From an uncultured Erysipelotrichaceae bacterium (lineage in GTDB: Bacteria; Bacillota_I; Bacilli_A; RFN20; CAG-826), in the NCBI GenBank assembly GCA_902769185.1, contig CACXNV010000005.1:1-56250 (forward strand): a stretch of DNA of 56,250 nt, in the 5' to 3' direction. Below the pieces are notes generated by a model. That model had not been told where the DNA came from. It made no database searches and saw only the letters and a list, made by a program, of their open reading frames with translations. Position numbers and translations under genes: made by a program. This document shows positions 17,349-34,949 of the stretch, piece after piece. Each line of letters begins with the position of its first letter. Within the stretch, counting starts at the first letter, position 1.

Positions 17349-18383
17349 ATGGAACAAGAAAAATATATATTTAATAAGTATTATTCATCAGAATATGATG
17401 TGGATCCTGTTTTTAAGACTAAAGACTTCGACTTATTTGGGAATGCTGGAGCTCTAAGTGATGAGCCTGATTTATTTGAAGTATATTTAAATCCAAGGCG
17501 ATTTAGATATTGTTTAATTGAACCTAGAAAAATTTGCGGAAACGAGCAAGTGCTACTCAAAATAAAAAGATATTTGCTTTCGCATGAGGACAATGAAGAT
17601 TTAAACAATCCAATTAATACTTATTTTATTGGGGAAATGAAGAAATCTATTGAAGTGTCAAGTGAGTTTACGAATCAAAACATAATTTTGGTAACTTACG
17701 AGATGATAGAACAATGGTATCCAAAGAGAATGAAAGATATCTTCAATGTTATTATTCGTCATATTTTAAAAAAACAAAAATATCCTGGAGAGCTAAGGTT
17801 CTTTCTTTCATTAGATAATGACATTGTTTTTGTAGACCCTAGTTTAAATGATTCTCAAAAAAGAGACTATAAGCTCTATATGATGAAATGCATGAAAGAG
17901 GAAGGGTTAATATCAATGATTAATGATGGAATGCACATTGACTGTTTTACTCTTACTGCTAAAGCTGTTGATTCTATTGAAAATTTAGAGGCAAGTAACA
18001 GCAGGATGGCTTTTATTGCTATAAAATTTGATAAAAACGAAGAACGAATTAATGCTATTCAAAACGCAATATCATTAGCAGGATATGAACCAATAGTGAT
18101 GAATCAAGTAGAAACGAATGACTGGATTATGCCAGAAATATTCTTCCAGATAAAAAATAGTAAATTCGTGGTTGCAGATTTTAGTTTGCCTTGTGATGGT
18201 GCGTATTATGAAGCAGGATATGCTGCTGCATTAGATAAACCAGTAATACATCTTTTTGATAAAAGAGAAGAAGGTAACAATAAACTTCACTTTGATATCG
18301 CTCAAAAATCAACAATATTTTATAACGACTATAACGAACTAAAAGGAAGACTCATAAAAAGAATTAAAGCTACAATTAAATAA
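17349..18383 (+). CDS. TIR/nucleoside 2-deoxyribosyltransferase-like protein
   Basis: 344 residues. Residues 1-210 are an unrecognised region. Residues 213-340 form a Rossmann-like fold typical of nucleoside 2-deoxyribosyltransferase/TIR-like domains: MAFIAIKFD, a helix, GYEPIVMNQVE, IKNSKFVVADFS, and GAYYEAGYAAALDKPVIHLF. The YEAGYA element carries the Glu that acts as nucleophile in this fold. Relatives are widespread in defence loci as sensors or NAD/nucleotide-cleaving effectors. Here it lies just upstream of the DISARM operon. Domain call good, activity inferred. Confidence 0.65.
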   Translation: MEQEKYIFNKYYSSEYDVDPVFKTKDFDLFGNAGALSDEPDLFEVYLNPRRFRYCLIEPRKICGNEQVLLKIKRYLLSHEDNEDLNNPINTYFIGEMKKSIEVSSEFTNQNIILVTYEMIEQWYPKRMKDIFNVIIRHILKKQKYPGELRFFLSLDNDIVFVDPSLNDSQKRDYKLYMMKCMKEEGLISMINDGMHIDCFTLTAKAVDSIENLEASNSRMAFIAIKFDKNEERINAIQNAISLAGYEPIVMNQVETNDWIMPEIFFQIKNSKFVVADFSLPCDGAYYEAGYAAALDKPVIHLFDKREEGNNKLHFDIAQKSTIFYNDYNELKGRLIKRIKATIK

Positions 18384-18388
18384 ATTTT

Positions 18389-18730
18389 ATGAAGCGCATG
18401 ACAATGAAAATCAAACCCTGTTTTCTTGAACTAATAAAAGCAGGCAAAAAGAAACATGAATATAGATTAAACACTCCAGATAGAAGGAATCTTTCTATTG
18501 GAGATCAAATAATATTAGTGTCTAATGAAAACCCTAAAGACACTTTAGTGGTAACAATAACAGATATATCAATGCATCCTAATTGGGTAGATGCATTAAA
18601 AGATTTTTGGAAAGAAGACTTTGATGGATTGTTTGATAATCTCGACGATTTAATCCATGAATGTAATAAATTCTATTCTCCTGAACAAGTTAAGGAGTAT
18701 GGAATTGTTAGATTTGGAATAAAAGTATAA
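18389..18730 (+). CDS. ASCH-domain protein, 113 aa
   Basis: MKIKPCFLELIKAGKKKHEYRLNTPDRRNLSIGDQIILVS fits the ASCH fold (PUA-like), with the conserved I..G.K..EyR and GD.I motifs. ASCH and the related EVE/YTH domains bind RNA or modified bases. It begins 5 bp after the TIR-like gene and lies 96 bp before the cytosine methyltransferase. A modified-base reader here would make sense beside a two-methylase defence system; that link is inference. Confidence 0.7.
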   Translation: MKRMTMKIKPCFLELIKAGKKKHEYRLNTPDRRNLSIGDQIILVSNENPKDTLVVTITDISMHPNWVDALKDFWKEDFDGLFDNLDDLIHECNKFYSPEQVKEYGIVRFGIKV

Positions 18731-18796: not shown

Positions 18797-18826
18797 TTTA
18801 TGTAACCTGTTTTGGTTTGGGTATGG

Positions 18827-20104
18827 ATGAGTAAAAGGAAGTTAAACTTTATTGATTTGTTTGCTGGAGCAGGCGGATTATCAGAAGGTTTTGTTAATGC
18901 TGGCTTTCTGCCTGTTGCGCATGTTGAGATGAATCACGATGCTATTGAAACTCTCAAGTCTAGAGAAGTTTTTCATTATTGCTTAAATCATAACTTAACC
19001 ACACTTTATAATTCTTACCTTCGAGGATCAGTTTCCAAGGATAATATTAGAAATCGTATACCATCAATAATTTTAGAACGCGTTATCGAAAAAGAGATGA
19101 GCGAAGACAATCTTGGTGAACTTTTTACCAAAATCGATGCTTTGATGAAAATGCAAAATATACGCAAAGTGGTGGATGTAATAATTGGTGGACCACCTTG
19201 CCAAGCATATTCTTTGATAGGTCGACCAACCAACAAGGATAAAGAAGACGACAAACGCCTTTATCTTTATAAGGTTTATACAAAGTTCTTGGAAAGATAT
19301 CAACCCAAGATGTTTGTTTTTGAAAATGTCCCAGGGATTTTATCTTGTACATCTGATGGGCATTCACATTTTGAAGATATCAAAAACTGTTTTACCGAAG
19401 TTGGATATGAAATTGAACATAGAGTGCTTTGCGCGAAGGATTATGGAGTTCTTCAAAACAGAAAACGTGTCATTTTGATTGGTTGGAAAAATGGTTCTGA
19501 ATGGCATTATCCAGAAATTGAAAAAAAAGAATACGATGCTGTAATAAGCGATTTACTTGCTGATCTCCCCCCAGTTCAGCCGGGAGAGTCAAGTAATAAG
19601 TATCGTCGCGGGAATTATAGTAGCTATTTAAAGGAAGCGTCCATAAGAAAACCTGGTGATGTTTTAACATGGCATTTAGCTAGACCAAATAGAGAACTTG
19701 ACAGAGATATTTATAGATGTGCTATTCAACTTTGGAATAACAAACATCAAAGACTCAATTACAACGATTTACCAGACAATTTAAAAACTCACAAGAATCG
19801 TTCATCTTTTACCGATAGGTTTAAAGTTGTTCCAGCTGATTTGGAATCTTGCCAAACTATCATGGCCCACATTTCTAAAGATGGTCATTATTTTATCCAT
19901 CCTGATATTAATCAAGCTCGTTCCCTTACGGTTAGAGAAGCAGCTAGAATTCAATCTTTCCCAGACAATTTCTACTTTGAAGGTAGTCGTACCTCTGCAT
20001 TTGTTCAAATTGGAAATGCTGTTCCACCTTTATTAGCGGAAGCAATTGCAAAAGGGATTAAGAATCTTCTCGTTTCTAAATTAAAGGAGAAAGCTAATGA
20101 GTAA
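18827..20104 (+). CDS. drmMII: DISARM cytosine-5 DNA methyltransferase (DrmMII-like)
   Basis: 425 residues from ATG 18827. Motif I FIDLFAGAGGLSEGF (residues 8-22) binds S-adenosylmethionine; motif IV GGPPCQAYS holds the catalytic Cys125; motif VI FENVPG at 165-170; and the C-terminal motifs REAARIQSFP and IGNAVPP are all present, so the enzyme looks active. It methylates C5 of cytosine in host DNA, marking self. In class 2 DISARM this enzyme is DrmMII. Its stop overlaps the SNF2 gene by 8 bp, placing it first in the operon. DISARM role follows from context. Confidence 0.88.
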   Translation: MSKRKLNFIDLFAGAGGLSEGFVNAGFLPVAHVEMNHDAIETLKSREVFHYCLNHNLTTLYNSYLRGSVSKDNIRNRIPSIILERVIEKEMSEDNLGELFTKIDALMKMQNIRKVVDVIIGGPPCQAYSLIGRPTNKDKEDDKRLYLYKVYTKFLERYQPKMFVFENVPGILSCTSDGHSHFEDIKNCFTEVGYEIEHRVLCAKDYGVLQNRKRVILIGWKNGSEWHYPEIEKKEYDAVISDLLADLPPVQPGESSNKYRRGNYSSYLKEASIRKPGDVLTWHLARPNRELDRDIYRCAIQLWNNKHQRLNYNDLPDNLKTHKNRSSFTDRFKVVPADLESCQTIMAHISKDGHYFIHPDINQARSLTVREAARIQSFPDNFYFEGSRTSAFVQIGNAVPPLLAEAIAKGIKNLLVSKLKEKANE

Positions 20105-22724
20105 CACGATTATCGAACAATATGGCGTTACCAAAAAGCAAGCTTTGAAGGCTTCTCCTTTTAGTTGCTTTGATGAAAGTGATATTGAACCACAGCCACA
20201 TCAAATTGACGCTTTTATTAGAGCCATCAAATCCTTAGATACGGGAGGACTTGTTTTGGCTGACGAAGTTGGTCTTGGAAAAACCATTGAAGCTGGTTTG
20301 ACTTTGAAATACTTAATCAATGGTGGCGCAAAAAAGATTGTAATTGCTGTTCCAAATACCTTGCGAAAGCAATGGCAAATTGAATTGGATGAGAAATTTG
20401 ATATCAAGTCAGAAATCATAGATAGACAAGCTCTAACATCTGAAAACACAAGATATGTTGTTCAAAGGCACATTGATGATAATGAATATGTCCTTGTTGC
20501 CATCACTTCTTATTATTATGCTTCCCAACTTATTAAACGAGCTACAAACAACGCTTGGGATTTTGTGATTATTGATGAAGCTCATAATCTTAGAAATGCA
20601 TTTAGAGGCGCAAAAAGGTATCAACGTCTCTATGAAGCCACTAAAAATATTCCTAAGCTTTTGCTTACCGCTACTCCAATTCAAAATAACATTGGAGATT
20701 TATATGGCTTGATCTCTTTTATTGATCCTAAAATTTTTGGAGATGAAAAATTGTTCAATATGTATGTTGCTAGCAACACTTATGAACCAATAAAAGATGC
20801 AATTAAATCAGTTGTTCAAAGAACGTTAAGAAGAGATGTAGGAAAATATCTCCAATTCAAAAAGAGAACATCCAAGACATTTGATTTTTGCTTATCTAAA
20901 GATGAAAAGTTGCTCTATAGCTTAGTTGATAAGTATTTGAAGAGAGACATTAGCTACGGCTTCCCAAACACAAATAACAGGAATCTTTTGTTGCTCGTTG
21001 TTAGAAAGATGCTTGCATCTTCATCTAAAGCCTTAATAGAAACTTTTGAGGTTATTAAAACAAGATTGCATAAACTGCAACAAGGTACTAAATCAATCAA
21101 TGCACAACAAGGTTTTGACAAATTTTTAAGTTATCTTGATGAAGATGATGAAGACGAGGATGTTTTAGAAACAAAAGAGGATGAATCATTAACAATTAGA
21201 CTTAATGCTATTGAAGAAGAAATAGGCATTGTTGATGACATTATTAACTTAGCTGAAAGAATTCAAGTTAACGCTAAGATGGAAAAACTTTTAGAAGCAG
21301 TAGAATATGCTTTTGAATATCAACGAGCTAATCATTTGCCAGAAAAGGCAGTTATCTTTACTGAATCCAAGAGAACACAACGTTACATAAGACAGACTTT
21401 AATTGATTGGGGATTTACTGATAATGAAATTGTCATTTTTAATGGCGATATGACAGATGAAAAGAGCAAGAGAATATATAATAACTGGAAAGCGTTGAAC
21501 TATAGCAAAAAGAACTATGGTCCTCAAATCGAATTTAGACATGCTATGGTGGACTATTTCCAAAAGAAGGGAAAAGTATTCATTTCAACCGATGCTGGTT
21601 CTGAAGGTTTGAACTTACAATTTTGCAATATCATTATTAACTATGACTTGCCTTGGAACCCAATGAAGATTGAACAAAGAATTGGCCGTTGTCATAGATA
21701 TGGGCAACTTCATGATGTTTTAGCTATCAACTTCTTAAATACTGAAAACGAAGCTGATAAACGCGTTTATGACATCCTTTCTAAAAAGTTCCAATTGTTT
21801 GAAGGCATTTTTGGTGCGTCAGACAAGGCGTTGGAGATATTGGAAAGCGGAAATAACTTCGAAAAAGAAATCTTCGATATTTATCAAACATCCAATTCTA
21901 CTTTAGAAATTAAACGTCGATTTGATGCATTGGATAAATCTCTCGATAAAAAGAGAAATAGAGTTGCAAATACTTTACGTACCTTATTAGAAACCAAAAC
22001 CGCCGAAGAAAAAACTGAAACATTTGATAAAGCTTATACCGACATCATTAACTATCTTGATGAAGTTAATTATTGGGATAGTATCGAAAAGCCAGAAAAG
22101 GTTTCCCCAGGATTATCACTAAAGTTGAAGAAGAATCCATTTGATATTTATGGAATTAAATCTGGTTACATCTTATTTGGCGGATTGATTGTTGGAAACA
22201 TTCTTGAAAGGTCTCTAGCAATTCTTACAGATAATAGTGGAAGTACTTTAGGATTAACCGAAAAAGAAATAATCAATGCAATAAAAGATATTGATAATTC
22301 CGATATTGAAACTTTTAAAGCTAATGGCAGTGAAATGCAAACAATAGTGGATGTCATCAATAAAGCCGAATCATCGGCGGCTTATGACTTTGAAAAAGAA
22401 TCGGTCGACATCATTGAATATAACAAAAAGAAGATGGAGAACTGGGTAACCATACAAGAATCTCTATTACAGATTGAATTAACCGAAAAGAAAAACGAAA
22501 TCGATAGAATGAAGGAAGAAATGTCTCAGATGACTAACTTCTTACAGAAAGTTGATTATCGAGAAAAAATAGAAAAGAAACAGCATGCTTTAGAAAAAGA
22601 ACAAAATCGATATTACCAAGCTATTGATGCAATCAAGAAAACTGCTCAAAAGCAAATCGATGAGTTTAATAAGAAGTATTATAAAAAAGCCTCACTTTTA
22701 GTGAGAATAGTTGTGAAATTTTAG
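20097..22724 (+). CDS. drmD: SNF2/RapA-type helicase (DrmD-like)
   Basis: 875 residues. Motif I DEVGLGKTIEAG (residues 56-67), motif II DEAH at 160-163, motif III LTATPIQN, and a complete C-terminal RecA lobe with STDAGSEGLNLQF and QRIGRCHRYGQ. This is a Swi2/Snf2 translocase like DrmD of class 1 DISARM. The last 250 residues are coiled-coil-like (LQIELTEKKNEIDRMKEEMSQM). SNF2 proteins pump along double-stranded DNA. The start overlaps the cytosine methyltransferase stop, so translation is coupled. Confidence 0.85.
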   Translation: MSNTIIEQYGVTKKQALKASPFSCFDESDIEPQPHQIDAFIRAIKSLDTGGLVLADEVGLGKTIEAGLTLKYLINGGAKKIVIAVPNTLRKQWQIELDEKFDIKSEIIDRQALTSENTRYVVQRHIDDNEYVLVAITSYYYASQLIKRATNNAWDFVIIDEAHNLRNAFRGAKRYQRLYEATKNIPKLLLTATPIQNNIGDLYGLISFIDPKIFGDEKLFNMYVASNTYEPIKDAIKSVVQRTLRRDVGKYLQFKKRTSKTFDFCLSKDEKLLYSLVDKYLKRDISYGFPNTNNRNLLLLVVRKMLASSSKALIETFEVIKTRLHKLQQGTKSINAQQGFDKFLSYLDEDDEDEDVLETKEDESLTIRLNAIEEEIGIVDDIINLAERIQVNAKMEKLLEAVEYAFEYQRANHLPEKAVIFTESKRTQRYIRQTLIDWGFTDNEIVIFNGDMTDEKSKRIYNNWKALNYSKKNYGPQIEFRHAMVDYFQKKGKVFISTDAGSEGLNLQFCNIIINYDLPWNPMKIEQRIGRCHRYGQLHDVLAINFLNTENEADKRVYDILSKKFQLFEGIFGASDKALEILESGNNFEKEIFDIYQTSNSTLEIKRRFDALDKSLDKKRNRVANTLRTLLETKTAEEKTETFDKAYTDIINYLDEVNYWDSIEKPEKVSPGLSLKLKKNPFDIYGIKSGYILFGGLIVGNILERSLAILTDNSGSTLGLTEKEIINAIKDIDNSDIETFKANGSEMQTIVDVINKAESSAAYDFEKESVDIIEYNKKKMENWVTIQESLLQIELTEKKNEIDRMKEEMSQMTNFLQKVDYREKIEKKQHALEKEQNRYYQAIDAIKKTAQKQIDEFNKKYYKKASLLVRIVVKF

Positions 22725-22736: not shown

Positions 22737-24272
22737 ATGAAATATTCTGGAAAATTAGAATTAACTTGGGTTAATAAAGACAAAGATGTTGCTGACTTGA
22801 TGAAAATCGAGCCAAGAATTCTTGTTGAAGATAGAACAAAATCTTACGGTGATCCCAAATCTGAAAATGTATTAATTCATGGCGATAATTTAGTTGCTCT
22901 AAAAGCCTTAGAAAGAGATTATGCAGGAAAGATAAAATGCATCTATATTGATCCTCCTTATAATACAGGTTCAGCTTTTGAGCACTATGATGACAATGTC
23001 GAACATAGTACTTGGCTTTCTTTAATGTATGCTAGATTACACCTATTAAGAAATTTACTTACTGATGATGGGACTATTTGGATAAGCATCGATGCTGATG
23101 AAAGTCATTATTTAAAAGTACTTTGCGACGAAATATTTGGCAGAAAAAACTTTATTGATGAAATTGTGTGGCAAAGAGCTTATGCCCCAATCAATTTAAA
23201 AAAGACGCTTTCTAGGGCACATGATACTATCCTTGTGTATGCAAAGAATTATTCAATGGATTTTAAATTAAATACTTTACCTAGAAGCGGTGAAGCATTA
23301 TCGAGATATAAAAACCCAGACAACGATCCAAGAGGATTATGGCAGTCCGATAATCTTTGGTGCGGGCCTAGAGTTGAAGCAAATGTATTTGAAATTATCA
23401 CACCGTCTGGCAGGAGCATTTTTCCTCCTGACGGATATTCTTCTCGATTGTCTAAAGAACGTTTTGAAGAATATGTACGAGATAATCGCATTTGGTTTGG
23501 CCCAAAGGGAGATAACACGCCTCGTATTAAAAGATTTTTATCAGAAGTCAAATCTGGTGTTGTTGCAATGACTTGGTGGACTAGAGAGGAAATTGGAGAC
23601 AATCAGGAGGCCAAGCGTGAAATAAAAGCTCTTGGATTGTCTGATAAACCTTTTGATACGCCGAAACCAGAACGCTTAATAGAAAGAATATTGACAATAG
23701 CAACTAACGAAGGTGATTTTGTTTTAGATTCTTTTTTGGGATCTGGGACAACAATAGCTGTCGCACATAAAATGAAACGCAAATGGATTGGAATTGAATT
23801 AATGGACACGGCATATTCATATTGCAAGCCTAGAATGGATTTAATTATCAACGGAAACGAACCTGGCGGAGTTACTAAATCTACTGGTTGGATTTCAGGT
23901 GGTGGCTACAAGTTTTATGAGTTGGCCGATCCGTTATTGGTGAAAAATCCAATTATTCCAGTTTATGATGTTAATCCTACTTATACATTTGAAATGGTTT
24001 GTGAGGCTATTTGTAAGATTGAATCTTTCACTTATGCCCCAGCTGATTTCTATCATGGTTATTCGACAGAAAATAGATTTATCCACGTCACACTTGAATA
24101 CGTAAATGGCGAATATGTGTCTGATTTAGCATCAAAGCTAAGTGATAAACAATCACTAATTATCTACTGCTTGAAACATCAGCGAGATATAGCTTTGCCA
24201 GACAATATTGAAATAAGACGTATCCCTAAAGATATACAAGAGAAATGCAACTTTGAAAGTGAGAAGGAATAG
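22737..24272 (+). CDS. N6-adenine DNA methyltransferase, type III Mod-like (beta class)
   Basis: 511 residues. The catalytic DPPYNTG (residues 72-78) precedes the SAM-binding FLGSGTT near 330, the beta-class order of type III Mod subunits. There is a target-recognition stretch between them and a conserved start (VLIHGDNLVALKAL). AGGAGGG precedes the ATG. The next gene encodes the matching Res-like subunit, so this looks like a type III modification enzyme. It takes the position of DrmMI of class 1 DISARM, but that enzyme is, as I recall, of a different adenine methylase family, so I leave the symbol empty. Confidence 0.85.
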   Translation: MKYSGKLELTWVNKDKDVADLMKIEPRILVEDRTKSYGDPKSENVLIHGDNLVALKALERDYAGKIKCIYIDPPYNTGSAFEHYDDNVEHSTWLSLMYARLHLLRNLLTDDGTIWISIDADESHYLKVLCDEIFGRKNFIDEIVWQRAYAPINLKKTLSRAHDTILVYAKNYSMDFKLNTLPRSGEALSRYKNPDNDPRGLWQSDNLWCGPRVEANVFEIITPSGRSIFPPDGYSSRLSKERFEEYVRDNRIWFGPKGDNTPRIKRFLSEVKSGVVAMTWWTREEIGDNQEAKREIKALGLSDKPFDTPKPERLIERILTIATNEGDFVLDSFLGSGTTIAVAHKMKRKWIGIELMDTAYSYCKPRMDLIINGNEPGGVTKSTGWISGGGYKFYELADPLLVKNPIIPVYDVNPTYTFEMVCEAICKIESFTYAPADFYHGYSTENRFIHVTLEYVNGEYVSDLASKLSDKQSLIIYCLKHQRDIALPDNIEIRRIPKDIQEKCNFESEKE

Positions 24273-24273
24273 T

Positions 24274-26907
24274 ATGAATAAGGTAGTTAAATATGTCTCT
24301 CAAGCTATGAGCTTCAGAGATCCGCAAGAAGAAGCTTTAGACTATTTTTCACAAATTTCTGACTTATCAGATTTCAAAAAACAATCCAAAGAGCAATTAG
24401 AAAAGATTGCTAGTGAAAACTGTGAAGGTCACCATACAATCAAAGTTGATAGTCATTTTGACTTTGTATCATATTGCTTCTCAATGGCAACAGGTATTGG
24501 TAAAACCCGTTTAATGGGTGGCTTAATTTATTATCTTTGGAAGACAAAAGGATATAAGCACTTCTTCATACTTGCTCCAGGAAACACAATATACGACAAG
24601 CTTAGAAGAGAATCTCAAATTGGCCATCCTAAATATTTATTTAAAGGTCTTGAATCTGAGATGGGTAATCCTAGAATTTGGGATGGAGAGAACTATACAA
24701 CATATAAAACCACTAGTGGAGTTCAAATGCTTGCTTCTGGTAAAGAATCTGAAGTTGAAATCTTTATCTTTAACATTGGAAAGATTTTTAATCGTGGTGA
24801 CGTGCAATTCAATTTCCACGCATATAAGGAAACGTTAGGATCTTCGTTCGCGGATATTTTATCTGGGTTTGATGACTTAGTCATTTGCATGGATGAGGCT
24901 CATAGATATTATGCTCCAGCTTCAATGAAAGCCATCAACTACTTAAAACCAGTATTGGGATTAGAATTTACAGCCACCCCAAAAGACGTTAATAAAAATA
25001 TTATCTACACATATGGCATCACTAAAGGTGCTGGCAAGTATCTGAAGATTCCAGTTGTAATGGGCAGAACGAATATGGCTGGATATGATGAAAAAGCCAT
25101 TGAAGAAATGAAGATTAGAGATGGTTTAGACTTACACGAAAAGAGAAAGAAAGCCATCCTTGAGTATGTTTCTAATCATCAAGATGAAGGTGTTAAATAC
25201 GTTAAGCCTATTGTTCTTATTGCATGTAAAGACACTAATCATGCTAAAGAAGTAAGAACTTTTATTGATAGTGATGAGTTTAGAGGCGGAAAATACAAAG
25301 GAAAAGTTATTGAAGTTCACTCAAATATGACTGGAGAAGAATCTGAAGAAAACATTAAGTTACTTCTATCTGTTGAAAAGAATGATAACCCAGTTGAAAT
25401 CATCCTCCATGTATATAAGCTCAAAGAAGGATGGGATGTTAATAACTTATTTACAATCATTCCTCTTAATGCCGCAAAGAGTGATATATTAGCTCTTCAA
25501 ACAATTGGTAGAGGCCTTAGATTACCATTTGGACATATAACCGGTGATGAAACAATTGATACATTAGATATTGTCGCTCATGAGCATTACCGAGAATTGG
25601 TTAATGAAATTAAAGCTGGCGGAGTGTTTAGAACAAGAAACTTGGATGACGAGCCAGTTGAAGAAACCGAAAGTGTTAAACTTGAATGTAATTTGTTTGA
25701 TGACGATGAATTGGAAAGATTAGAAGAAGCATCTAAAAACGCTGGCTTCAGTCTCTCTTCAGATTTAGACGACCCAGATGTACAAAATAAGTTATATGAG
25801 GAATATCAAAAAACTTATGGACCTGTCCCAGTCAAACAAAAGAAGGTAGAAAAAGACGATGGTCAAATGTCGCTGTTCGATGATTTGCCAGAGGAAGAAG
25901 AGAAGTTAAATATACAACAAGAAACTCCAAAAGTTGAACCAAAGATTAAAACCAAAGAGGAATTCATAAACAAAGTCAAAGCGTACCAAGTGAAAGCTAT
26001 TCAGGTGCCAAGAATATCTATATTCGCTTCCACACAAAGACAAATGAGTGTTTTTGTTGTAGTAAGGAATATTAAGGACTTTGATGTTGAAGCGTCAAAA
26101 ATAGAAAGATATGACGCAATTAATCAAAAGCTTATTGATTCAATCCCTGCTGAGGTTTTATTAGACCCAAATCCAGTAAATACGTTGGCGTGTATGCTTT
26201 TTGATGCTGTCGAAGAATTTAGTTCAGAAGATGCTCAATATATCTTAAAGCTAGTTAATGATTATTTGGCTTTGATTGATGGCGATGAAGAATATAAGAA
26301 ACAAGTTGTTAGAAGATATGCGTCATTAATCGTTAATGATATTGCTAATCAAATTAGAGAACATTGTGTTTCAACAACGACTCACACCTATAAGATTCAA
26401 AAAGACTTCATATGTTTTAGACAAGTTTCCAAAACAATTAAGAGCGGTGGCTCTTTGTTGTTCAAAAACCCATTCAACGATAAACAAAATATCAAAAAAT
26501 ACATTTTTAATGGATATAAGAAATCTTATTATCCTGAGAATGCTTTTGATAGTGACCCTGAAAGAGTATTCTCCATTATTCTTGAGGAAGATGGAAAAGT
26601 TGTTAGATGGATTAAACCTCCTTTAAATCAGCTAGGTATTTTCTGGAGAGCTGGTGAGCAATATAACCCTGATTTCTTAGTTGAAACAGAAACCGATAAG
26701 TATATGGTTGAAGTCAAAGCTAAAAAAGACGTTAAAAATGAAGAAGTTTTAGAAAAAGCGAGAGTGGGCATTAGATGGTGCAGTTATGCATCTACTTGTG
26801 ACCCAGATGGCAAAAAATGGCATTACTTCATGGTTGCGGACGAAAATATTAAAGAAGGGAATTCCCTTAAGTACACTTTAGGCTTAGCGGAATCTGTAGG
26901 TGAATAA
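24274..26907 (+). CDS. Type III Res-like helicase-nuclease
   Basis: 877 residues from ATG 24274 (GAAGGA upstream), starting 1 bp after the methyltransferase stop. Walker A MATGIGKTRL near 75, DEAH motif CMDEAHRYY near 205, FTATP, and motif VI LQTIGRGLRLP form an SF2 helicase of the type III Res class. The C-terminus carries a PD-(D/E)XK nuclease (NPDFLV...YMVEVKAKKD near 800-820). With the adjacent Mod-like protein it would recognise and cut unmodified DNA after ATP-driven diffusion. Not a standard DISARM component. Confidence 0.82.
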   Translation: MNKVVKYVSQAMSFRDPQEEALDYFSQISDLSDFKKQSKEQLEKIASENCEGHHTIKVDSHFDFVSYCFSMATGIGKTRLMGGLIYYLWKTKGYKHFFILAPGNTIYDKLRRESQIGHPKYLFKGLESEMGNPRIWDGENYTTYKTTSGVQMLASGKESEVEIFIFNIGKIFNRGDVQFNFHAYKETLGSSFADILSGFDDLVICMDEAHRYYAPASMKAINYLKPVLGLEFTATPKDVNKNIIYTYGITKGAGKYLKIPVVMGRTNMAGYDEKAIEEMKIRDGLDLHEKRKKAILEYVSNHQDEGVKYVKPIVLIACKDTNHAKEVRTFIDSDEFRGGKYKGKVIEVHSNMTGEESEENIKLLLSVEKNDNPVEIILHVYKLKEGWDVNNLFTIIPLNAAKSDILALQTIGRGLRLPFGHITGDETIDTLDIVAHEHYRELVNEIKAGGVFRTRNLDDEPVEETESVKLECNLFDDDELERLEEASKNAGFSLSSDLDDPDVQNKLYEEYQKTYGPVPVKQKKVEKDDGQMSLFDDLPEEEEKLNIQQETPKVEPKIKTKEEFINKVKAYQVKAIQVPRISIFASTQRQMSVFVVVRNIKDFDVEASKIERYDAINQKLIDSIPAEVLLDPNPVNTLACMLFDAVEEFSSEDAQYILKLVNDYLALIDGDEEYKKQVVRRYASLIVNDIANQIREHCVSTTTHTYKIQKDFICFRQVSKTIKSGGSLLFKNPFNDKQNIKKYIFNGYKKSYYPENAFDSDPERVFSIILEEDGKVVRWIKPPLNQLGIFWRAGEQYNPDFLVETETDKYMVEVKAKKDVKNEEVLEKARVGIRWCSYASTCDPDGKKWHYFMVADENIKEGNSLKYTLGLAESVGE

Positions 26908-26908
26908 T

Positions 26909-29900
26909 ATGGCAGATAGGTTTCAAGAAGCTAAGCTAAGAGACAACATTGTTGATTTTGTCAAAAAGGATTTAGTTGGTCCTGCGGATGAAAATGAAAT
27001 TTTAAATGAAAGCCCAATGTTTGCATACTTAACTGGGATGATTTATCCAAAAGGTGCAGCATACGGTGAAGCTTCAGAACAAGAAATTGGTTTTGATGTG
27101 GATATGGAAGAAGCTGCCGATTACAGCCAAGACGACGATGAGGATGATGGTCAAGCAATGACGACCACGAAATTCAAACAACAAACATCTATTGGCGCAA
27201 CGTTCTATTTGAAAAAAACAGCTAAGTCTTTCAACATCAAAGTTAATTGGGGTGACTATACACTTTTAGATGAAGTTGAAAACGATTCAGAAGAAGTTGA
27301 CCTTTTGGAATATGCTGAAGAGGAAGACGTTAAAAAGAAAAAGACTCATAGAAGATATCTAAGATATCCTCAAAGCGAGACAATTAAGATTGAAATGGAT
27401 AAAATACCATCCAGCAACGAATTCCTTCTTAAAACAGATTCTAAACTCAAATTAAAGTTAAATATTTTTGGATTAACTAATGAATATCAAGTGGTGAGCG
27501 CATTTATTTCTAATGAAAGAAGCGTTGGAGATGATGCGACTGATAGTGTTATGTTCCAAGTCGAATTAGAGATTATTGCTGATGAAGACTTATTCTATGC
27601 GGAAAACATCTGTAGAGATTCCTTAGCAGAAAGTGAATATTTATATTCACAAAGGCCGGTATTTGCTAGAGGCAGAGGGTGTGCTGTAACTTGGAATAAC
27701 CTTACCAACGAAGAAACTAATTACATAAGAACAACATTTATTCCTGAACATGAAATATGCGGAGTGAGTGCATCGTTTAAAGAATTTCAACCAGATTATT
27801 TTTCAACACTATTCTTTGCAAAAAACTCTAATAAAGAAAAGACTTTAGAAAGACTTCGTGGATTAACTTCTTCATATGAAGAATGGATTAATAAACTAAG
27901 AAGTGATCCTAAGATGTCTGATAAAGATTTTTACAATAAAGTCGGCAGAGATGTTATTGAAAAATGTTCGAATGCTTTAAAACGAATGAAAGAAGGCATT
28001 AATATTCTTGAAAGAAACGCCACGGCTTTTAGTGCATTCACGTTTATGAATGTGTGCATGCGTTTGCAGAAGAATATTGCCGCATATTCAAAGAAACATG
28101 GTCAAGGGATTGAATGTAATTTTGGAGAATTTACGGATACATCTAAACCAGAAAACGATATGACATGGTATCCGTTCCAAATTGCCTTTATTTTAATGAA
28201 TATCAATTCGATTGTTTATCCTGAATGTGAAGATAGAAATGTTGTCGATTTACTTTACTTCCCAACTGGTGGCGGAAAGACTGAAGCTTATTTAGGTCTT
28301 ATTGCTTTTACTATTGCTCACAGAAGAATGTCTAGAAGTCCGAATGATCAATACAATAAAGATGGTGGGGTTACAGCCTTCTTGCGTTACACATTAAGAT
28401 TATTGACCACTCAACAAAGAGATAGAATTACCAGAATGATTGTTGCTGCCGAATACTTAAGACGCAAAAAACCAGATGTTTTAGGTAGTGAACCGATTTC
28501 AATCGGCTTCTGGGTTGGTGGAGATGTTACTCCAAACTCTTACAAAGATTTTATGGGTGATGACATTCCAAGAATAAAAGAAGCTAAACGTAAAATATCT
28601 AATCAGTTATTAACGTGTCCATTTTGTGGAAGGCCGTTGGAGCAAGAATCTTTTAGATATAATGACACTACCGAGGAAATAGAAATTTATTGTGAAGATA
28701 AAAATTGTATCTTTTACAAATATCCAGATAATCCAGACGATATGATTCCTATGCCAATATACTTGATAGATGAACAAATCTATAGGCGTTGTCCAACTGT
28801 TGTTTTGGCCACTGTTGATAAATTTGCAAGGCTTCCATGGGATCCAAAGACAAATGCATTGTTTGGACGCGTTAACAAAAAATGCACAAGACATGGATAT
28901 GTTGCGATTGGTGAATATCATCCGTACAAGCACCTGAAAACAGATCTTTATCCAGATGCCCATTGTGTTGGAGTTAAGATGTTTGCTCCTCCAGAATTAA
29001 TTGTCCAAGACGAGTTACATTTAATTACTGGTCCTCTAGGAACAATTTATGGTGGGTATGAAACATTAATCGAGGATCTGTGTTCTTATGAATTGAATGG
29101 CAAAAAAATCAAACCAAAATATGTTTGTTCAACTGCAACAATCAAGAATGCTGATGAACAGATTAAATGTCTCTATGGCAGGAAGAAAACTAACATTTTT
29201 CCATCAAGAGGTTTACTTATTGGTGATTCATATTTTATCAGGGACGAATCGCTGAAATCAAAACCGTTTAGAAAGTATGTTGGCGTTTGTGCACATGGTC
29301 AATCCATGAAAACAACTCTTTTGAGAACATATGCTGCCATTTTGCAATATACCTTTGAATTATCAAAAGACCCTGCAAATCTTAACTGTATTGACCCTTA
29401 TTTCTCTCTAGTTGGTTATTTCAACTCAATTCGTGAACTTGGTGGTACAGTACGTTTGTTACAAGACGACATTCCAAAGAGAATGAACCGAATTAGAAAT
29501 AGATATAAGTTTGAAAAAGTCCGACCTCTATTTGCTGCAAAGCAAGAGGAAATCACGTCTCGTATAAATTCGAGAGATATTGCTAGGAAACTTCAAAAGC
29601 TTGAAACCCCTTTTGACAATAAAGAGTGTATTGATACTGCTGTTGCAACCAATATGATTGCGGTTGGCATGGACGTTGATAGACTTGGTTTGATGACTGT
29701 TATGGGTCAGCCAAAACTTAATTCCGAATATATTCAAGCAACATCTCGTATCGGAAGGAAACATCCAGGGCTAGTTTTTACTATCTATAATCCATATCGT
29801 CCTAGAGACCTTTCTCATTATGAGAATTTCACCGGTTATCATTTACAACTTTATAGATATGTTGAAGGCACAACCGCAACTCCTTTCTCAGCTAGAGCAA

Positions 29901-30280
29901 GAGATAGATTTATTCATGCGATTATCATTGCTGTTTTAAGAATGAAATATTCAAATATGGCTGGAAACCCAGAGAAGATTTTGGAGCTTAGTGATGATGA
30001 ACTAAATGCATTTACCAAGATTATTGAGGAGAGAATCCAATTAATTAATCCTAGAGGCAAGGATGAAGCTATGAGGGAGATTAGAGTCTTCTTGGCTAAT
30101 TGGAAGAGAATTGCTTCTACGAAGAAAATGAAATATTCTGGTGAACCTGATTCAACCACTGAAGTTCTTATGGTTGGCTTTGAGGAAAAGAATAGATTAG
30201 GGCAATCTAAGAGTACATTAAACTCAATGCGTGAAGTTGAGAGTGGCTCTGAACTTTATTACGATGAGGGGGTTATCTAA
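26909..30280 (+). CDS. drmA: DISARM helicase DrmA
   Basis: 1123 residues from ATG 26909 (GGTGA upstream; a GTG at 26900 is in frame). The N-terminal 430 residues are acidic and unrecognised. Walker A YFPTGGGKTEAYLG lies near 450, a Cys4 zinc motif (CPFCGRPL...CEDKNC) near 570-600, the motif II region VQDELHLITGPLG near 700, and the second lobe with ATNMIAVGMDVDRLG and QATSRIGR near 915-950. The size and the DELHLI/GPLG signature match DrmA. DrmA-DrmB is the core complex that loads on unmodified, 5'-overhang phage DNA. Confidence 0.88.
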   Translation: MADRFQEAKLRDNIVDFVKKDLVGPADENEILNESPMFAYLTGMIYPKGAAYGEASEQEIGFDVDMEEAADYSQDDDEDDGQAMTTTKFKQQTSIGATFYLKKTAKSFNIKVNWGDYTLLDEVENDSEEVDLLEYAEEEDVKKKKTHRRYLRYPQSETIKIEMDKIPSSNEFLLKTDSKLKLKLNIFGLTNEYQVVSAFISNERSVGDDATDSVMFQVELEIIADEDLFYAENICRDSLAESEYLYSQRPVFARGRGCAVTWNNLTNEETNYIRTTFIPEHEICGVSASFKEFQPDYFSTLFFAKNSNKEKTLERLRGLTSSYEEWINKLRSDPKMSDKDFYNKVGRDVIEKCSNALKRMKEGINILERNATAFSAFTFMNVCMRLQKNIAAYSKKHGQGIECNFGEFTDTSKPENDMTWYPFQIAFILMNINSIVYPECEDRNVVDLLYFPTGGGKTEAYLGLIAFTIAHRRMSRSPNDQYNKDGGVTAFLRYTLRLLTTQQRDRITRMIVAAEYLRRKKPDVLGSEPISIGFWVGGDVTPNSYKDFMGDDIPRIKEAKRKISNQLLTCPFCGRPLEQESFRYNDTTEEIEIYCEDKNCIFYKYPDNPDDMIPMPIYLIDEQIYRRCPTVVLATVDKFARLPWDPKTNALFGRVNKKCTRHGYVAIGEYHPYKHLKTDLYPDAHCVGVKMFAPPELIVQDELHLITGPLGTIYGGYETLIEDLCSYELNGKKIKPKYVCSTATIKNADEQIKCLYGRKKTNIFPSRGLLIGDSYFIRDESLKSKPFRKYVGVCAHGQSMKTTLLRTYAAILQYTFELSKDPANLNCIDPYFSLVGYFNSIRELGGTVRLLQDDIPKRMNRIRNRYKFEKVRPLFAAKQEEITSRINSRDIARKLQKLETPFDNKECIDTAVATNMIAVGMDVDRLGLMTVMGQPKLNSEYIQATSRIGRKHPGLVFTIYNPYRPRDLSHYENFTGYHLQLYRYVEGTTATPFSARARDRFIHAIIIAVLRMKYSNMAGNPEKILELSDDELNAFTKIIEERIQLINPRGKDEAMREIRVFLANWKRIASTKKMKYSGEPDSTTEVLMVGFEEKNRLGQSKSTLNSMREVESGSELYYDEGVI

Positions 30281-32055
30281 TGGCTAAGAAAAGATTTTTT
30301 AATCCGGATAGGATTGGTGAAATAAGACCTGGTCAAATTATTACTACTTTTGGTCCGGGAGCTATTACTGATGCAAGAAAAGATTCTGTTACCGTTCTTG
30401 ATATTAATTATTGGGGGAGAAACGGAACAAAGATTTTTGATACACGTCTAGCCTCTTATTTAAATGTCGACTATTTTAAATGTCCACCTACGGATGGATC
30501 AAACGATGTTCCAGTAGTTTCATTCCCAAAAGTACACGTTTGTTCTAATCCAAAATGTGGAAGAATTTTTAATATAGAAGAACATTTTGATAGGGACAAC
30601 TATTTGAGAATGGGCCCTAGATGCCCAGATTGCGGAGCTCCAGCATACCCTTCTAGATTTATTATGATGTGTGAATGTGGACACTTAGATGATTTTCCTT
30701 GGAGAGAATGGGTTCATGGCGGAAAGACTGATTGTGAAGGCCATTTAAGACTAAAATCTACCGGTTTGACATCAACTTTAGCTGATTTAAGAATTGAATG
30801 CGATGAATGTGGCGCAAAGAAAACCATGAGTGGTGCCATGCAAGAAGACAATTTCTTAAGATATAAATGCACTGGACGTCATCCATTTAGACCTAATACT
30901 CAATACGAAAGATGTAACAAGACAATGAGAGCTTCTCAAAGAGGTGCTTCAAATGTCTATTTCCCAGTTATTAGAAGTGCTTTATCCATTCCACCTTGGA
31001 TTGATCCGCTTTTTAACTTAATTGATGAGCATTACCGTGACATCATAAATTATCGAATTGATTTTGGAGAAGCTGGTGTTCATAAAATTTATGAAAGATT
31101 CTTTGCTGATAAATATAGTGAGACTGAGTTTAACGAAGCACTTCGTAAAAAAGATTTAAATATTCAAGAATACATGATGATTAAAGAAATGGAGTACAAA
31201 GCTTTTACCCATCACAACTCACCAATCTATTCTAAAGAAGAATATCGCAAATACTTTATGGCTGAAGAAGAACCTGTTTCTGCTGCGTTGTCTCCTTATT
31301 TCTCAAGAATTATTCAAATCAATAGACTTAGAGAAATCATGGTCTTGCTTGGATTCACTAGATTAGATGCACCAGACCCAGATGCTGATGAGCAAAAGAA
31401 TATTGTCTATCTCACCAAAGAAAGTGGTGGAGAAAGATGGCTTCCTGGCGTTGAAATAAATGGCGAGGGTATCTTTATTGAATTTAATCATCACACTGTT
31501 GAAAAATGGCTTTCTAATAGTAGCGTGGCTAAGCTTTCAAAGATTTACAGCGATGGCTATGTTAGCTATTGTGAATCTAGAGGATGGACAAGTAAAAATA
31601 TCAAGGATGGCAAGTATGTTTTGCTTCATACATTTGCTCACTTATTAATAAAAGAAATGTCTCTTTCTTCTGGTTATTCAACTTCCGCAATTAAAGAAAG
31701 GATTTATTCTGGTGATAAGATGTGCGGCATTTTGCTGTACACAGGTAGCTCAGATAAAGAAGGCTCCCTTGGCGGTTTGGTTGAACTTGGTAAAGAGGAA
31801 AAATTACTCCCAATTATTAAAGCTGCTCTTGAAAATGCTTTAGTTTGTACAAGTGACCCAGAATGTATGTCGCATACTCCGACTATTGATGACATAAATG
31901 GTGCATCTTGCCATGCTTGTACAATGATTTCAGAAACAGCTTGTGAAAATGGCAATAGATTATTGGATAGAGGTTTTGTTGTTCCGTTACCTCAAAAAGA
32001 AGATACTGCGTATTTTAAGGAGCTTGTTAGAGATTTATGTGGGATAGAGATTTAA
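30280..32055 (+). CDS. drmB: DISARM DUF1998 protein DrmB
   Basis: 591 residues, start overlapping the drmA stop (TAATG). The N-terminal part has several Cys pairs (CSNPKCGRIF, CPDCGAPAYP, CECGHLDDF, CDECGAKK) expected to bind zinc. The DUF1998 part follows with LLHTFAHLLIKEMSLSSGYSTSAIKERIY near 445-475, then the conserved CHACTMISETACENGNRLLDR near 550-570. DrmB binds DrmA and helps open its DNA channel. The overlap order drmA-drmB-drmC is the DISARM core. Confidence 0.88.
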   Translation: MAKKRFFNPDRIGEIRPGQIITTFGPGAITDARKDSVTVLDINYWGRNGTKIFDTRLASYLNVDYFKCPPTDGSNDVPVVSFPKVHVCSNPKCGRIFNIEEHFDRDNYLRMGPRCPDCGAPAYPSRFIMMCECGHLDDFPWREWVHGGKTDCEGHLRLKSTGLTSTLADLRIECDECGAKKTMSGAMQEDNFLRYKCTGRHPFRPNTQYERCNKTMRASQRGASNVYFPVIRSALSIPPWIDPLFNLIDEHYRDIINYRIDFGEAGVHKIYERFFADKYSETEFNEALRKKDLNIQEYMMIKEMEYKAFTHHNSPIYSKEEYRKYFMAEEEPVSAALSPYFSRIIQINRLREIMVLLGFTRLDAPDPDADEQKNIVYLTKESGGERWLPGVEINGEGIFIEFNHHTVEKWLSNSSVAKLSKIYSDGYVSYCESRGWTSKNIKDGKYVLLHTFAHLLIKEMSLSSGYSTSAIKERIYSGDKMCGILLYTGSSDKEGSLGGLVELGKEEKLLPIIKAALENALVCTSDPECMSHTPTIDDINGASCHACTMISETACENGNRLLDRGFVVPLPQKEDTAYFKELVRDLCGIEI

Positions 32056-32729
32056 AGGCTCAAATACTAGCTAATTTTATCATTACAGATATTGAAAAGC
32101 TTGTTGCTAATAACGACCCAAACGCTATGCAACATCCTTTGGATGTGCTGCATGAAACATTTCCAAATTTAAGCGATGGAGAATTAGTCGACTTACTAAA
32201 TCTTATTGCTCATGTTTATAACATGAAGCACACTGAAAAAGTTGACTTAGTTGCCACTTTACCATCACATTACAAAACACAAGCGTTGCCAACGATTTCT
32301 GTCATTTCAGACTTAATTAATTCAGCTATGCAGATAATTATTATTACTGGCTATTCTATTTCTGACTATGCCGAAGATTTGCTTTTGAAGATTATTGATA
32401 AAAGCAGAAGTGGAGTCATGGTAAAAATATTTGTTAATAGATTTGAACCAAGCGAGTCTCCAATAATTAATAAACTTGATTTATACAAAGGACGTTATCT
32501 TGAAATTTACAATTATGTGGATCGTGAAGATGATATGGCGGCCTTACATGCAAAGACAATTTCAGTAGATGATACAAAATCTTTAATTACATCTGCTAAC
32601 TTATCTTTTCATGGATTAGAGAAGAATATTGAACTAGGATGTTTAATTGATTCATCAGATTACGCTAAGAAGCTTCATTTGCTTTTTAGTGACCTTATTG
32701 AAACAAGAAAAGTAAAAAAAGTTTACTAA
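32037..32729 (+). CDS. drmC: DISARM phospholipase-D-like protein DrmC
   Basis: 230 residues, overlapping drmB by 19 bp. One HKD motif (LHAKTISVDDTKSLITSANLS near 170-190) followed by GLEKNIELG, typical of PLD-family nucleases that work as dimers. The N-terminal 90 residues are helical. In known systems DrmC is a PLD protein that is not always essential to protection. Last gene of the coupled operon. Confidence 0.88.
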   Translation: MWDRDLKAQILANFIITDIEKLVANNDPNAMQHPLDVLHETFPNLSDGELVDLLNLIAHVYNMKHTEKVDLVATLPSHYKTQALPTISVISDLINSAMQIIIITGYSISDYAEDLLLKIIDKSRSGVMVKIFVNRFEPSESPIINKLDLYKGRYLEIYNYVDREDDMAALHAKTISVDDTKSLITSANLSFHGLEKNIELGCLIDSSDYAKKLHLLFSDLIETRKVKKVY

Positions 32730-32764: not shown

Positions 32765-32820
32765 AATAACATTTGATCCCCAGATCTTCGTGTGATCTAA
32801 TATTAAAGAGGTTAGATGTT

Positions 32821-34944
32821 ATGGATTTATCGAATTACTTCTTGGCAGCACCAAGTGATTTGCACCTTTTAGGCAGGGAAAAAGAACTTCAATTATTAAA
32901 AGTTTATGCCTTCAATGCGTACTTTAATGCTGATCCTTTATACACAGATAATGTGAATAATGGATGCACTTATAGAAGAGATGCTCATGGTGGAATCGAT
33001 GGTGTTTTTATTAACGAAACTTTAGAAGAAAACACAATTGAATGTCTTCATTCTTATTTTGTTGGTGAAGGACCATTTGTTTTGAACGAAGTCTTCAATT
33101 TCTTGAACAGGATTTCAGCTGAATTAGATGATGTTAGAAAAGGACGTTTTGTTAATAACAAAGAAGCCGATGATTTACTAAGAGAGTATTTAGATGAATC
33201 TGAAAACAAAAAGGTAATCATTAGAGTTATTACTGATTATTCTTGTGATCCAACTGAAAAATATAATTTAAATAAGAAAATCGAAGCTTTCAGTGTTAGC
33301 GTTAAAAACCTTGAAGTTTCAGCCGTGGTTGCTTTTGGCGATGACGTAAAAGCTGTTATCGAGAGTAATAGAGCACCATTTGATTGGGTTGAAGAAGGAA
33401 AAGTAGTTCTTGATGAAGCTGACAACTTCTTGAGATTTAAAGACCATAGTATCGTTTGCAATATCTCAGCAAAATCATTAAAAAAATTATGGGAAGATGA
33501 AGGTGATAGAGGTTTATTAGCCATGAACCTTCGTTATTACATTAAATCTACTAATATCGATAATAAAATTGAAGAATCTATCTTATTTGATGGAAAAGAC
33601 TTCTGGTATTTAAACAACGGTATCATTATTGTTTGCAACGATTATAAAGTTGTCGGAAACGAAGTTTGGTTAAAACAATTCTCAATCGTCAATGGTGGCC
33701 AAACATCTAGGATGATTGGAACTATACCGTTCAATGATGACTTCTTTATTAGCTGTAAAATTATTAAAAATGTTTTTGAAACAGCGCAAGAGAAAAACTT
33801 GTTTATCTCTAAAGTTGCCGAAGCATCCAACACGCAAAAACCAATTAAGGCAAAAGATATCATCGCTAACAGAATAGAACAAAGGAATCTCAAATCCTTA
33901 ATGCAAGAAAATGGAGTATTCATTGAAATCAAGCGTGGTGAAAAATGTAATCATGAGATTTATCCAGAAGCGTGGCAACGCACCAAAAACAACGAGTTAG
34001 CTCAAGACCTATATTCATTTGTATTTATGGAACCAGGCCCAGCTCGTAACAGTGTTTCTTCTATGCTTTCAAACGAAGAGAAATATAATGTCATTTTTAG
34101 AGAACATGAATATTCATTTGATTTCTTGCGTGACGTCTTATTCTTAGAAAAGGCTTATAAGGAATATCAAAAGAAAATTAACAAAGACAAAGATGACTAT
34201 GGTGATAGTTCAATTAAGAAAGGCCTTGTTAAAAACGGCTTATGGTATTGCTTAGCAACAATTGGCTATGTTTTAAAACTCTATTACAATAAAGAATATA
34301 GAAATAACATGTATCAATATCGTAATCAGGATTTAAAATATTCGCTCTATTCACCAGAACTTGCATTTATGCATGGTTTCATTGATAGAGAATACTCTTA
34401 CAAAGAATTTAGAGATTCTGCTTTTGAATTATTCGATTTAGTTTTCGCTCAGTTAATTGTCAATCAATTCAAACTTGCTCGTGATAGTAGCCCTTCGCTT
34501 GCTTATTCAAACTGGACAAAATCAAACACTGGCTTCAATGGAATTAGGTCGATGATTAACTTAATTACATTCGACAATAAACAAGAGTTCTTAATCAACG
34601 CTATTGCTAAGTACTTCGTTAAGATAGACGAGGATACTATGAATAAGAACATCGATAGATATGTTGATTACTGCAAAAAGAATAAGAAGATTAAAGCTAA
34701 AGATAATCTTGGCAATGAATTATCTGAAAACGATGAAGCATTAAGAAACGAATTGATGGTCTTTAGACTTAATTATTCGACTCAAAAGCATATTCCAGAA
34801 AGAAATATCTATACAGATAAGATGATAGATAGAATGGTAATAGAAAAGCCTGTTACTGATATCGAGCTGAAAAAGATTGTTAGTACAAATACTGTATACT
34901 TCTGTGGAAAGAAAATTCTAGAAATCATTATCAAATATATTTAG
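32821..34944 (+). CDS. AIPR family (abortive infection phage resistance) protein
   Basis: 707 residues from ATG 32821 with AAAGAGG upstream; upstream in-frame TTG codons are less likely. The AIPR core is clear: FWYLNNGIIIVCNDY near residue 260 and FSIVNGGQTSRMIG near 290, followed by the conserved EASNTQKPIKAKDII and WQRTKNNELAQDLYSF. AIPR proteins often accompany restriction-modification and other defence loci; their activity is not settled. Separated from drmC by a palindrome, so possibly regulated on its own. Confidence 0.85.
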   Translation: MDLSNYFLAAPSDLHLLGREKELQLLKVYAFNAYFNADPLYTDNVNNGCTYRRDAHGGIDGVFINETLEENTIECLHSYFVGEGPFVLNEVFNFLNRISAELDDVRKGRFVNNKEADDLLREYLDESENKKVIIRVITDYSCDPTEKYNLNKKIEAFSVSVKNLEVSAVVAFGDDVKAVIESNRAPFDWVEEGKVVLDEADNFLRFKDHSIVCNISAKSLKKLWEDEGDRGLLAMNLRYYIKSTNIDNKIEESILFDGKDFWYLNNGIIIVCNDYKVVGNEVWLKQFSIVNGGQTSRMIGTIPFNDDFFISCKIIKNVFETAQEKNLFISKVAEASNTQKPIKAKDIIANRIEQRNLKSLMQENGVFIEIKRGEKCNHEIYPEAWQRTKNNELAQDLYSFVFMEPGPARNSVSSMLSNEEKYNVIFREHEYSFDFLRDVLFLEKAYKEYQKKINKDKDDYGDSSIKKGLVKNGLWYCLATIGYVLKLYYNKEYRNNMYQYRNQDLKYSLYSPELAFMHGFIDREYSYKEFRDSAFELFDLVFAQLIVNQFKLARDSSPSLAYSNWTKSNTGFNGIRSMINLITFDNKQEFLINAIAKYFVKIDEDTMNKNIDRYVDYCKKNKKIKAKDNLGNELSENDEALRNELMVFRLNYSTQKHIPERNIYTDKMIDRMVIEKPVTDIELKKIVSTNTVYFCGKKILEIIIKYI

Positions 34945-34949
34945 AAAAC

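Follow-up and report, generated by a model that had tools for sequence, protein, structure and literature searches.

The window analysed here is the whole 56,250-nucleotide stretch of contig CACXNV010000005.1, from the genome of an uncultured Erysipelotrichaceae bacterium (GCA_902769185.1; 67 contigs, 1.34 Mb). It contains the genes for a type III modification (Mod) and restriction (Res) subunit within a DISARM operon, at the place where the methyltransferase DrmMI would be expected, which raises the question of how this pair came to be there and what it does. The initial annotation offered two answers: either a type III system was captured and replaced DrmMI, or the locus is a separate DISARM class in which DrmA, DrmB and DrmC work with a true nuclease. 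Our analysis favours, with a probability of roughly 0.7, a conserved seven-gene hybrid defence operon whose SNF2-Mod-Res part comes from a free-standing module, and whose type III part would give DrmA and DrmB (DrmAB) a re-targetable, sequence-specific initiation. Gene order, common descent, mostly intact catalytic motifs, purifying selection and swapping of the recognition domain are documented below by sequence comparison.

The type III pair and its operon

Seven genes, all on the plus strand, follow each other in the order DrmMII-SNF2-Mod-Res-DrmA-DrmB-DrmC. The first (18812..20104 (+), with a likely start at the in-frame ATG at 18827) encodes a DrmMII-type cytosine-5 DNA methyltransferase, matching PADLOC DrmMII PDLC02649 with 548 bits as well as Pfam DNA_methylase. 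Next comes an SNF2 helicase of the SNF2-Mod-Res lineage (20097..22724 (+)), scoring 1080.7 bits against NCBIfam DISARM_DrmD_b NF038318 (cut-off 950). Mod (22737..24272 (+), 511 aa) is a beta-class adenine methyltransferase, with 541 bits against PADLOC MTase_III and 172 bits against Pfam N6_N4_Mtase; as initially annotated, its DPPY (residues 72-75) precedes FLGSGTT (residues 333-339), in the permuted beta order. Between them lies the hypervariable target recognition domain (residues 140-305; 23154..23651 (+)), with boundaries placed by eye on the alignment. The nearest solved relatives of Mod by profile were the 6k0w Mod, EcoP15I Mod (4zcf) and Mbo45V (7dsu).

Res (24274..26907 (+)) combines a superfamily 2 (SF2) helicase with a C-terminal PD-(D/E)XK nuclease. 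Its open reading frame was listed from a TTG at 24253; the in-frame ATG at 24274, reading MNKVVKYV.., gives the reported 1 bp spacing from the Mod stop at 24272. The DEAH box and nuclease end that had been proposed were located at residues 207-210 and at P799 D800, E813 and K815, respectively; the P, D, E and K are invariant across 11 aligned Res proteins, and Walker A reads TGIGKT. Res scores 360 bits with PADLOC REase_III, also matches Pfam ResIII, falls slightly below the cut-offs of the RE_endonuc and TnsA-like C-terminal endonuclease profiles, and aligns by profile with EcoP15I Res (4zcf) at 7e-12 across about 50 residues. With both frames intact and located between SNF2 and DrmA-DrmB-DrmC, a beta-class Mod adjacent to an SF2 helicase-nuclease Res with intact motifs forms a complete type III pair inside the DISARM operon, as the initial annotation held. 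It shares with EcoP15I the Mod-Res organization, a beta-class Mod with an inserted recognition domain and an SF2 Res with a PD-ExK end, but it is embedded with SNF2 and DISARM genes and its Res aligns with that of EcoP15I only over the short stretch given above.

Downstream of Res, on the same strand and overlapping, are DrmA, DrmB and DrmC. The DrmA helicase (26900..30280 (+)) scores 1185 bits against NF038325 DISARM_DrmAS (cut-off 950) and matches Serratia DrmA 7s9v; DrmB (DUF1998/MZB; 30280..32055 (+)) scores 569 bits against NF038324 DrmB_fam (cut-off 240) and is also called by PADLOC. DrmC (32037..32729 (+)), a phospholipase-D-type nuclease with a single HKD-like motif, was assigned by PADLOC (PDLC02616, 248 bits). 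The DISARM core is thus present, with DrmA and DrmB above NCBIfam cut-offs and DrmC by PADLOC.

We compared this set with the PADLOC definitions of DISARM types I and II, as given in the accessible part of PMC9252829. DrmMI (PDLC02643) had no match in the genome of the window or in three other genomes carrying such hybrid loci; for DrmE, PDLC02636 found no match in the genome of the window and PF24957 occurred in 0 of these four genomes. By these definitions, the locus fits neither class 1, for lack of DrmMI, nor class 2, for lack of DrmE. Class 1 (DrmD-DrmMI-DrmA-DrmB-DrmC) shares DrmA, DrmB and DrmC and has an SNF2 helicase and an adenine methyltransferase in equivalent positions, but the hybrid lacks DrmMI, has an SNF2 of another lineage and a Mod-Res nuclease pair instead, and its DrmA is 31-35% identical to class 1 DrmA. 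Class 2 (DrmA, DrmB, DrmC, DrmE, DrmMII) shares DrmMII and differs in having DrmE. Outside the hybrid group, the nearest DrmMII that we saw aligned along most of the protein is 58% identical and comes from L224, a DISARM contig that also encodes a DrmE_C domain. The class-2-like DrmMII might point to a class 2 chassis with the SNF2-Mod-Res trio in the DrmE slot, but our initial class 2 stand-in, L038, had no PADLOC DrmE match at 1e-10. Trees of DrmA and DrmB show three groups without an outside root, and the class nearest to the hybrid core cannot be read from them. Cytosine and adenine methyltransferases also occur together in Serratia class 1 DISARM, and double marking is therefore not new.

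The SNF2 variant is already catalogued: NCBIfam DISARM_DrmD_b and PADLOC DrmD PDLC02619 describe the hybrid SNF2 lineage, and in the matches seen neither lists Mod or Res among the components of DISARM. A literature search, which did not cover the original DISARM paper and so gives no proof of absence, found neither Mod-Res as a DISARM component nor a third DISARM class in the accessible texts; the accessible part of the ARMADA/YprA preprint (PMC12458937) likewise holds no Mod-Res in DISARM.

Distribution and descent of the hybrid locus

Named genomes were scanned with a Res profile and the best 80 of 566 relatives kept, which under-samples stand-alone diversity; the set, found by way of Res, is also biased toward Res carriers. 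Fourteen of the 80 loci, all from Bacillota (L048-L060 and L063; Res identity 54-60%), carry drmA, drmB and drmC, and no others do: the short stretches around a truncated Res of 556 aa (L062) and an orphan Elusimicrobia Res (L061, 42%) were free of drm genes, and the remaining 64 loci (Res identity 31-36%) are without any DrmA or DrmB. All seven genes are visible in the 12 hybrid loci that are long enough, 11 of them in the order of the window, with DrmMII relocated behind DrmC in L055, from Clostridium cibarium; the contig of L058 begins inside Res, leaving Mod out of view. Neighbouring genes mostly overlap or are separated by a few bases, and the overlap of DrmB and DrmC is an identical 19 bases in all 14 loci. 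The flanking genes vary.

Searches with DrmA are free of the bias toward Res carriers. Among 392 genomes of the phylum of the window there were eight matches, five of them distant; the three with DrmA more than 50% identical (the window, G533, which is L052, and G424, which is L057) all have the block. We also searched 397 genomes of Lachnospiraceae, the family in which the genome of L059 (G766, recorded as Eisenbergiella) is classified. Six had DrmA at E <= 1e-100 and all six carry DrmMII-SNF2-Mod-Res-DrmA-DrmB, although three of these stretches end within DrmB, with DrmC beyond view. Five of these loci were new and distinct from the earlier ones (best DNA identity 67-91%). A virus-contig collection yielded three DrmA loci more than 50% identical, two with the same block (L171 and L172) and a third, L220, described below. 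The cognate Mod-Res pair is thus linked to drm genes in 22 loci (the window, 14, 5 and 2). No DrmABC of the hybrid clade without a type III pair was found in the DrmA searches, and Res had no match in phage records.

The initial annotation had suggested examining whether Mod and Res branch with other copies found beside drmABC, and they do. Our trees were quick, on subsets of rows and with Shimodaira-Hasegawa-like approximate likelihood-ratio support only (Res, 66 rows; Mod, 56 rows, comprising 14 hybrid and 42 of 84 stand-alone sequences; SNF2, 44 and 38 rows), and Mod comparisons omitted L049, L057 and L058, which are cut off or interrupted, as well as L061 and L062 from the stand-alone group. 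A single clade with starred support held all drm-linked SNF2 (13/13), all drm-linked Mods outside the recognition domain (14/14) and, for DrmA plus DrmB, all hybrids (18/18). The drm-linked Res (15/15) fell in one starred clade together with the truncated L062, whose context is out of sight, and with L061 as sister. The latter Res lies behind an HEC-01B-like gene (394-3629 of L061), with no Mod or drm gene in view. Copies from Oscillospiraceae, Lachnospiraceae and Erysipelotrichales mingle on short branches, indicating that the operon moves as a block. Judged by gene content and phylogeny, the seven-gene set is one unit, inherited together across gut bacteria.

Catalytic motifs are largely preserved in this unit, with DPPY/F, FxGSG, Walker A, DEAH/DESH and the PD motif in 14/14 hybrid loci and the ExK of Res in 13/14. 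Of five pairs tried for the ratio of nonsynonymous to synonymous substitutions (dN/dS), all genes were computable in three, the other two being saturated for most genes. In these three pairs the Mod core had dN/dS values of 0.09-0.10, and those of DrmMII, SNF2, Res (around 0.03), DrmA, DrmB and DrmC fell at 0.02-0.07, indicating that strong purifying selection acts on the coding sequences of the operon.

Origin of the SNF2-Mod-Res part and exchange of the recognition domain

The SNF2 gene beside Mod had been taken for DrmD, and PADLOC PDLC02619 also labels it so, but it is not the DrmD of class 1. With the majority of full-length SNF2 proteins from stand-alone SNF2-Mod-Res trios it scores 375-455 bits, compared with 80-128 bits for class 1 DrmD, and it reaches only 261 bits with the class 1 model NF038317 (cut-off 610). 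The model NF038318, with its cut-off of 950, separates five of five hybrids (1079-1397 bits) from four of four stand-alone proteins (629-698 bits). In a tree including other SNF2 families, hybrid and stand-alone SNF2 fell on one side (99*), and a clade of hybrid SNF2 with class 1 DrmD was rejected by an approximately unbiased (AU) test (p 1.6e-5), on a quick tree of 38 rows with some long branches. That a class 1 DrmD was kept and only DrmMI replaced is thus rejected by the scores, by the cut-offs of NCBIfam and by the AU test. An SNF2 domain peculiar to the hybrids was rejected as well: their C-terminal third, although weakly conserved (13% identity to stand-alone proteins), is still homologous, hybrid and stand-alone C-terminal parts matching in hhalign at 99.6%.

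The module of SNF2, Mod and Res, for which we found no formal name, is spread without drm genes over many phyla. Of the stand-alone loci, all 46 with 2.5 kb or more of upstream sequence have Mod and 36 of the 40 with 6.5 kb or more have SNF2 upstream, while none of the 37 with 6 kb or more of downstream sequence has DrmA there. All six plasmids inspected (from Ketogulonicigenium, Roseomonas, Deinococcus, Sphingopyxis, Salmonella and Paracoccus) carry SNF2, Mod and Res, sometimes with other genes between them, and no drm genes. SNF2, Mod and Res of this module are homologous to those of the hybrids along their length (Res 32-35% identical; Mod core 51% on average, versus 70% among hybrids), but the module lacks drm genes and often has accessory genes between SNF2 and Mod. 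The window has such an SNF2 of the same lineage beside Mod and Res. The proposal that a captured type III system replaced DrmMI therefore does not hold as worded, since the pair arrived with its own helicase; the relationships of SNF2 indicate that the whole three-gene module was taken up.

Four hybrids (L051, L052, L053 and L059) are nearly identical in Res (92-96%), DrmA (95-98%), DrmB (94-99%) and DrmMII (88-96%), while their Mod cores are 77-78% and their recognition domains 12-27% identical. Mean identity over the 91 pairs among 14 loci is 19% for the recognition domain, compared with 70% for the Mod core and 55-73% for the other genes. In the larger Mod set, recognition domains were taken by alignment columns. 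The nearest Mod core was another hybrid in 14/14 cases, and in 18/18 after the five new loci were added (four usable Mods). Conversely, the nearest recognition domain belonged to a stand-alone Mod in 9/14 cases, falling to 7/18 with the new loci because hybrid domains match one another too; the highest identity between a hybrid and a stand-alone domain was 83% (L254 with L183). The hybrid label changes 12 times on the recognition-domain tree, against 12.6 at random, and once on the core tree. Additionally, synonymous distances for the same pairs were larger for the Mod core (1.9-2.0) than for Res (0.7-0.9), and therefore larger parts of Mod have been exchanged too. These comparisons indicate that the recognition domain has been repeatedly swapped while the rest of the operon stays nearly constant. 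Type III Mods at large are known to exchange this domain; by the same comparisons, the exchange occurs here inside DISARM, with the cytosine methyltransferase staying fixed. It is seen outside DISARM as well: the stand-alone pairs L044 and L045 (genomes G028 and G175, from different families of the order of the window) have near-identical Res and C-terminal halves of Mod, and different recognition domains.

Proposed coupling to DrmAB, other partners and neighbouring genes

Type III enzymes generate short 5' overhangs when they cut. According to the accessible part of PMC9142583, a trigger loop keeps DrmAB inactive, and the complex is switched on by unmethylated 5' overhangs, which it prefers; V1296 of Serratia DrmA, a residue that senses methylation, contacts a DNA base, and 5-methylcytosine (5mC) reduces ATPase activity. 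The aligned residue in the window, DrmA V1113, is valine in 14/14 hybrids, and the N-terminal region of the protein contains an acidic stretch. EcoP15I requires two inverted sites and ATP, according to the accessible part of PMC4490356. From this, we infer a sequence of events in which Mod would place N6-methyladenine on host DNA at a short asymmetric site chosen by its recognition domain and DrmMII would add 5mC; host DNA would be protected by both marks. Where phage DNA lacks them, Mod-Res would scan from its sites and cut, with SNF2 clearing or remodelling the DNA; DrmAB, sensing unmethylated 5' overhangs, would load at the ends made by Mod-Res, or at phage ends or replication intermediates, and DrmC or Res might then degrade the DNA. 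The type III part would thereby provide a sequence-specific, re-targetable initiation for an otherwise sequence-independent DrmAB, sequence-triggered cutting feeding the latter.

A stronger form of this proposal has, in our estimate, somewhat less than an even chance. It holds that the hybrids make up a third DISARM class: Mod-Res would draw its recognition domains, like cassettes, from the same pool as stand-alone type III systems of other phyla, would give the sequence-independent DrmAB a re-programmable, sequence-specific start, and would within one operon couple the restriction cut to DISARM loading and degradation. The separate class suggested by the initial annotation agrees with a locus outside both class definitions and with its many drmABC-linked relatives on one branch.

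L220 bears on whether the pair is needed. Although nested within the hybrid DrmA/DrmB clade (96* and 100*), it lacks the cognate Mod-Res, SNF2 and DrmA being separated by a few bases. Its operon instead opens with two genes directly followed by DrmMII: one for an unrelated type III Mod of 695 aa, which scores 510 bits with PADLOC MTase_III PDLC03645, and one for a helicase of 947 aa with a ResIII domain (Pfam ResIII, 56 bits). This replacement by a nonorthologous pair suggests that a type III pair is needed in the operon, and not merely inherited.

Several observations weigh against the hybrid operon as a working unit. The Res-like protein of L220 scores just 45 bits with PADLOC REase_III and has no clean ExK, and the replacement is known from one virus-collection contig. 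In L060, from Lachnoanaerobaculum OBRC5-5, ExK has become ExR, losing the catalytic lysine; the frames of Mod and Res in L057 and of Mod in L253 are interrupted, possibly by assembly errors, and the majority of genomes are metagenome-assembled. DrmC of the window scores 104 bits with NCBIfam DrmC_I, under the cut-off of 133.

Alternatively, the DISARM core and the type III system, the latter aided by SNF2, might be independent systems that share an operon, travel together and act in parallel, as the existence of the trio without drm genes (SNF2 in 36/40 and DrmA in 0/37 stand-alone loci) would allow. We consider this unlikely, given the fixed order with tiny gaps or overlaps, the single clade for each component, the failure to find DrmABC of the hybrid clade lacking a type III pair, and the nonorthologous replacement in L220. 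Less probable still is that Mod is kept only as a self-marking methyltransferase in the stead of DrmMI, with the Res nuclease a passenger or only a translocase. Loss of the lysine in L060 and the equivalent positions of the SNF2 helicase and adenine methyltransferase in class 1 accord with it, but PD-ExK is intact in 13/14 loci, dN/dS of Res is about 0.03, and L220 again acquired a Mod plus a Res-like protein. A recent accidental insertion, such as the island with a type III system that splits drmMI in Cutibacterium acnes DSM 16379 (accessible part of PMC7365801), is refuted for the hybrid family by its 22 drm-linked loci, their monophyly and purifying selection. The case that the initial annotation named as telling against it, a recent random insertion with no drmABC-linked relatives, is not what we found.

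The authors of the DrmAB structure call nuclease recruitment in DISARM unsolved and DrmC dispensable (PMC9142583, accessible part). The hybrids, as naturally occurring DISARM systems that pair a true restriction nuclease with an exchangeable specificity domain, make the question of nuclease and targeting testable, and they suggest that DrmAB is a shared core adopting different front-end modules.

Other partners of DrmAB were also seen. In L142 (G321:C25, 2123-9109), genes for a UvrD-type helicase and a distant DrmA come after an EcoP15I-type Mod-Res with PADLOC scores of 702 and 1153 bits, and another contig of the same genome (L143, G321:C34) has the remainder of a DrmA plus a DrmB. Type III and DrmAB may have been paired independently here. 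DrmA-DrmB cores in L165, L166, L168 and L170 are accompanied by UvrD helicases (4/4) and, in the last three, NERD-domain proteins, with no DrmD or DrmE by annotation. DrmAB thus seems to accept several partner modules.

Promoter and terminator scans gave counts close to or under those of shuffles. Immediately 3' of DrmC lies an AIPR/AbiU-like gene (32773..34944 (+); Pfam AIPR, 96.5 bits), which is probably a mere neighbour because it has no match in the other hybrid loci. Further defence-like genes around the operon (17349-18730 and 32773-40273) are Nuc_deoxyrib_tr-like, ASCH, AlbA_2 and AbiEi-like; the AIPR, ASCH and Nuc_deoxyrib_tr-like genes were rejected as operon parts, none occurring in other hybrid loci. 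No gene for a Vsr mismatch endonuclease was found in the window; one follows DrmC within about 100 bases in L049, L057, L171, L172 and L220, and a weaker match lies farther away in L056, as expected alongside an active cytosine-5 methyltransferase. An LmuA/LmuB-like pair (Lamassu-like, with weak PADLOC scores) lies just 5' of DrmMII in L171 (1230-4310) and also in L048, L059 and L172. On the virus-collection contig L171, a large serine recombinase gene (20348-21922), about 2 kb 3' of the hybrid operon, hints at a mobile element.

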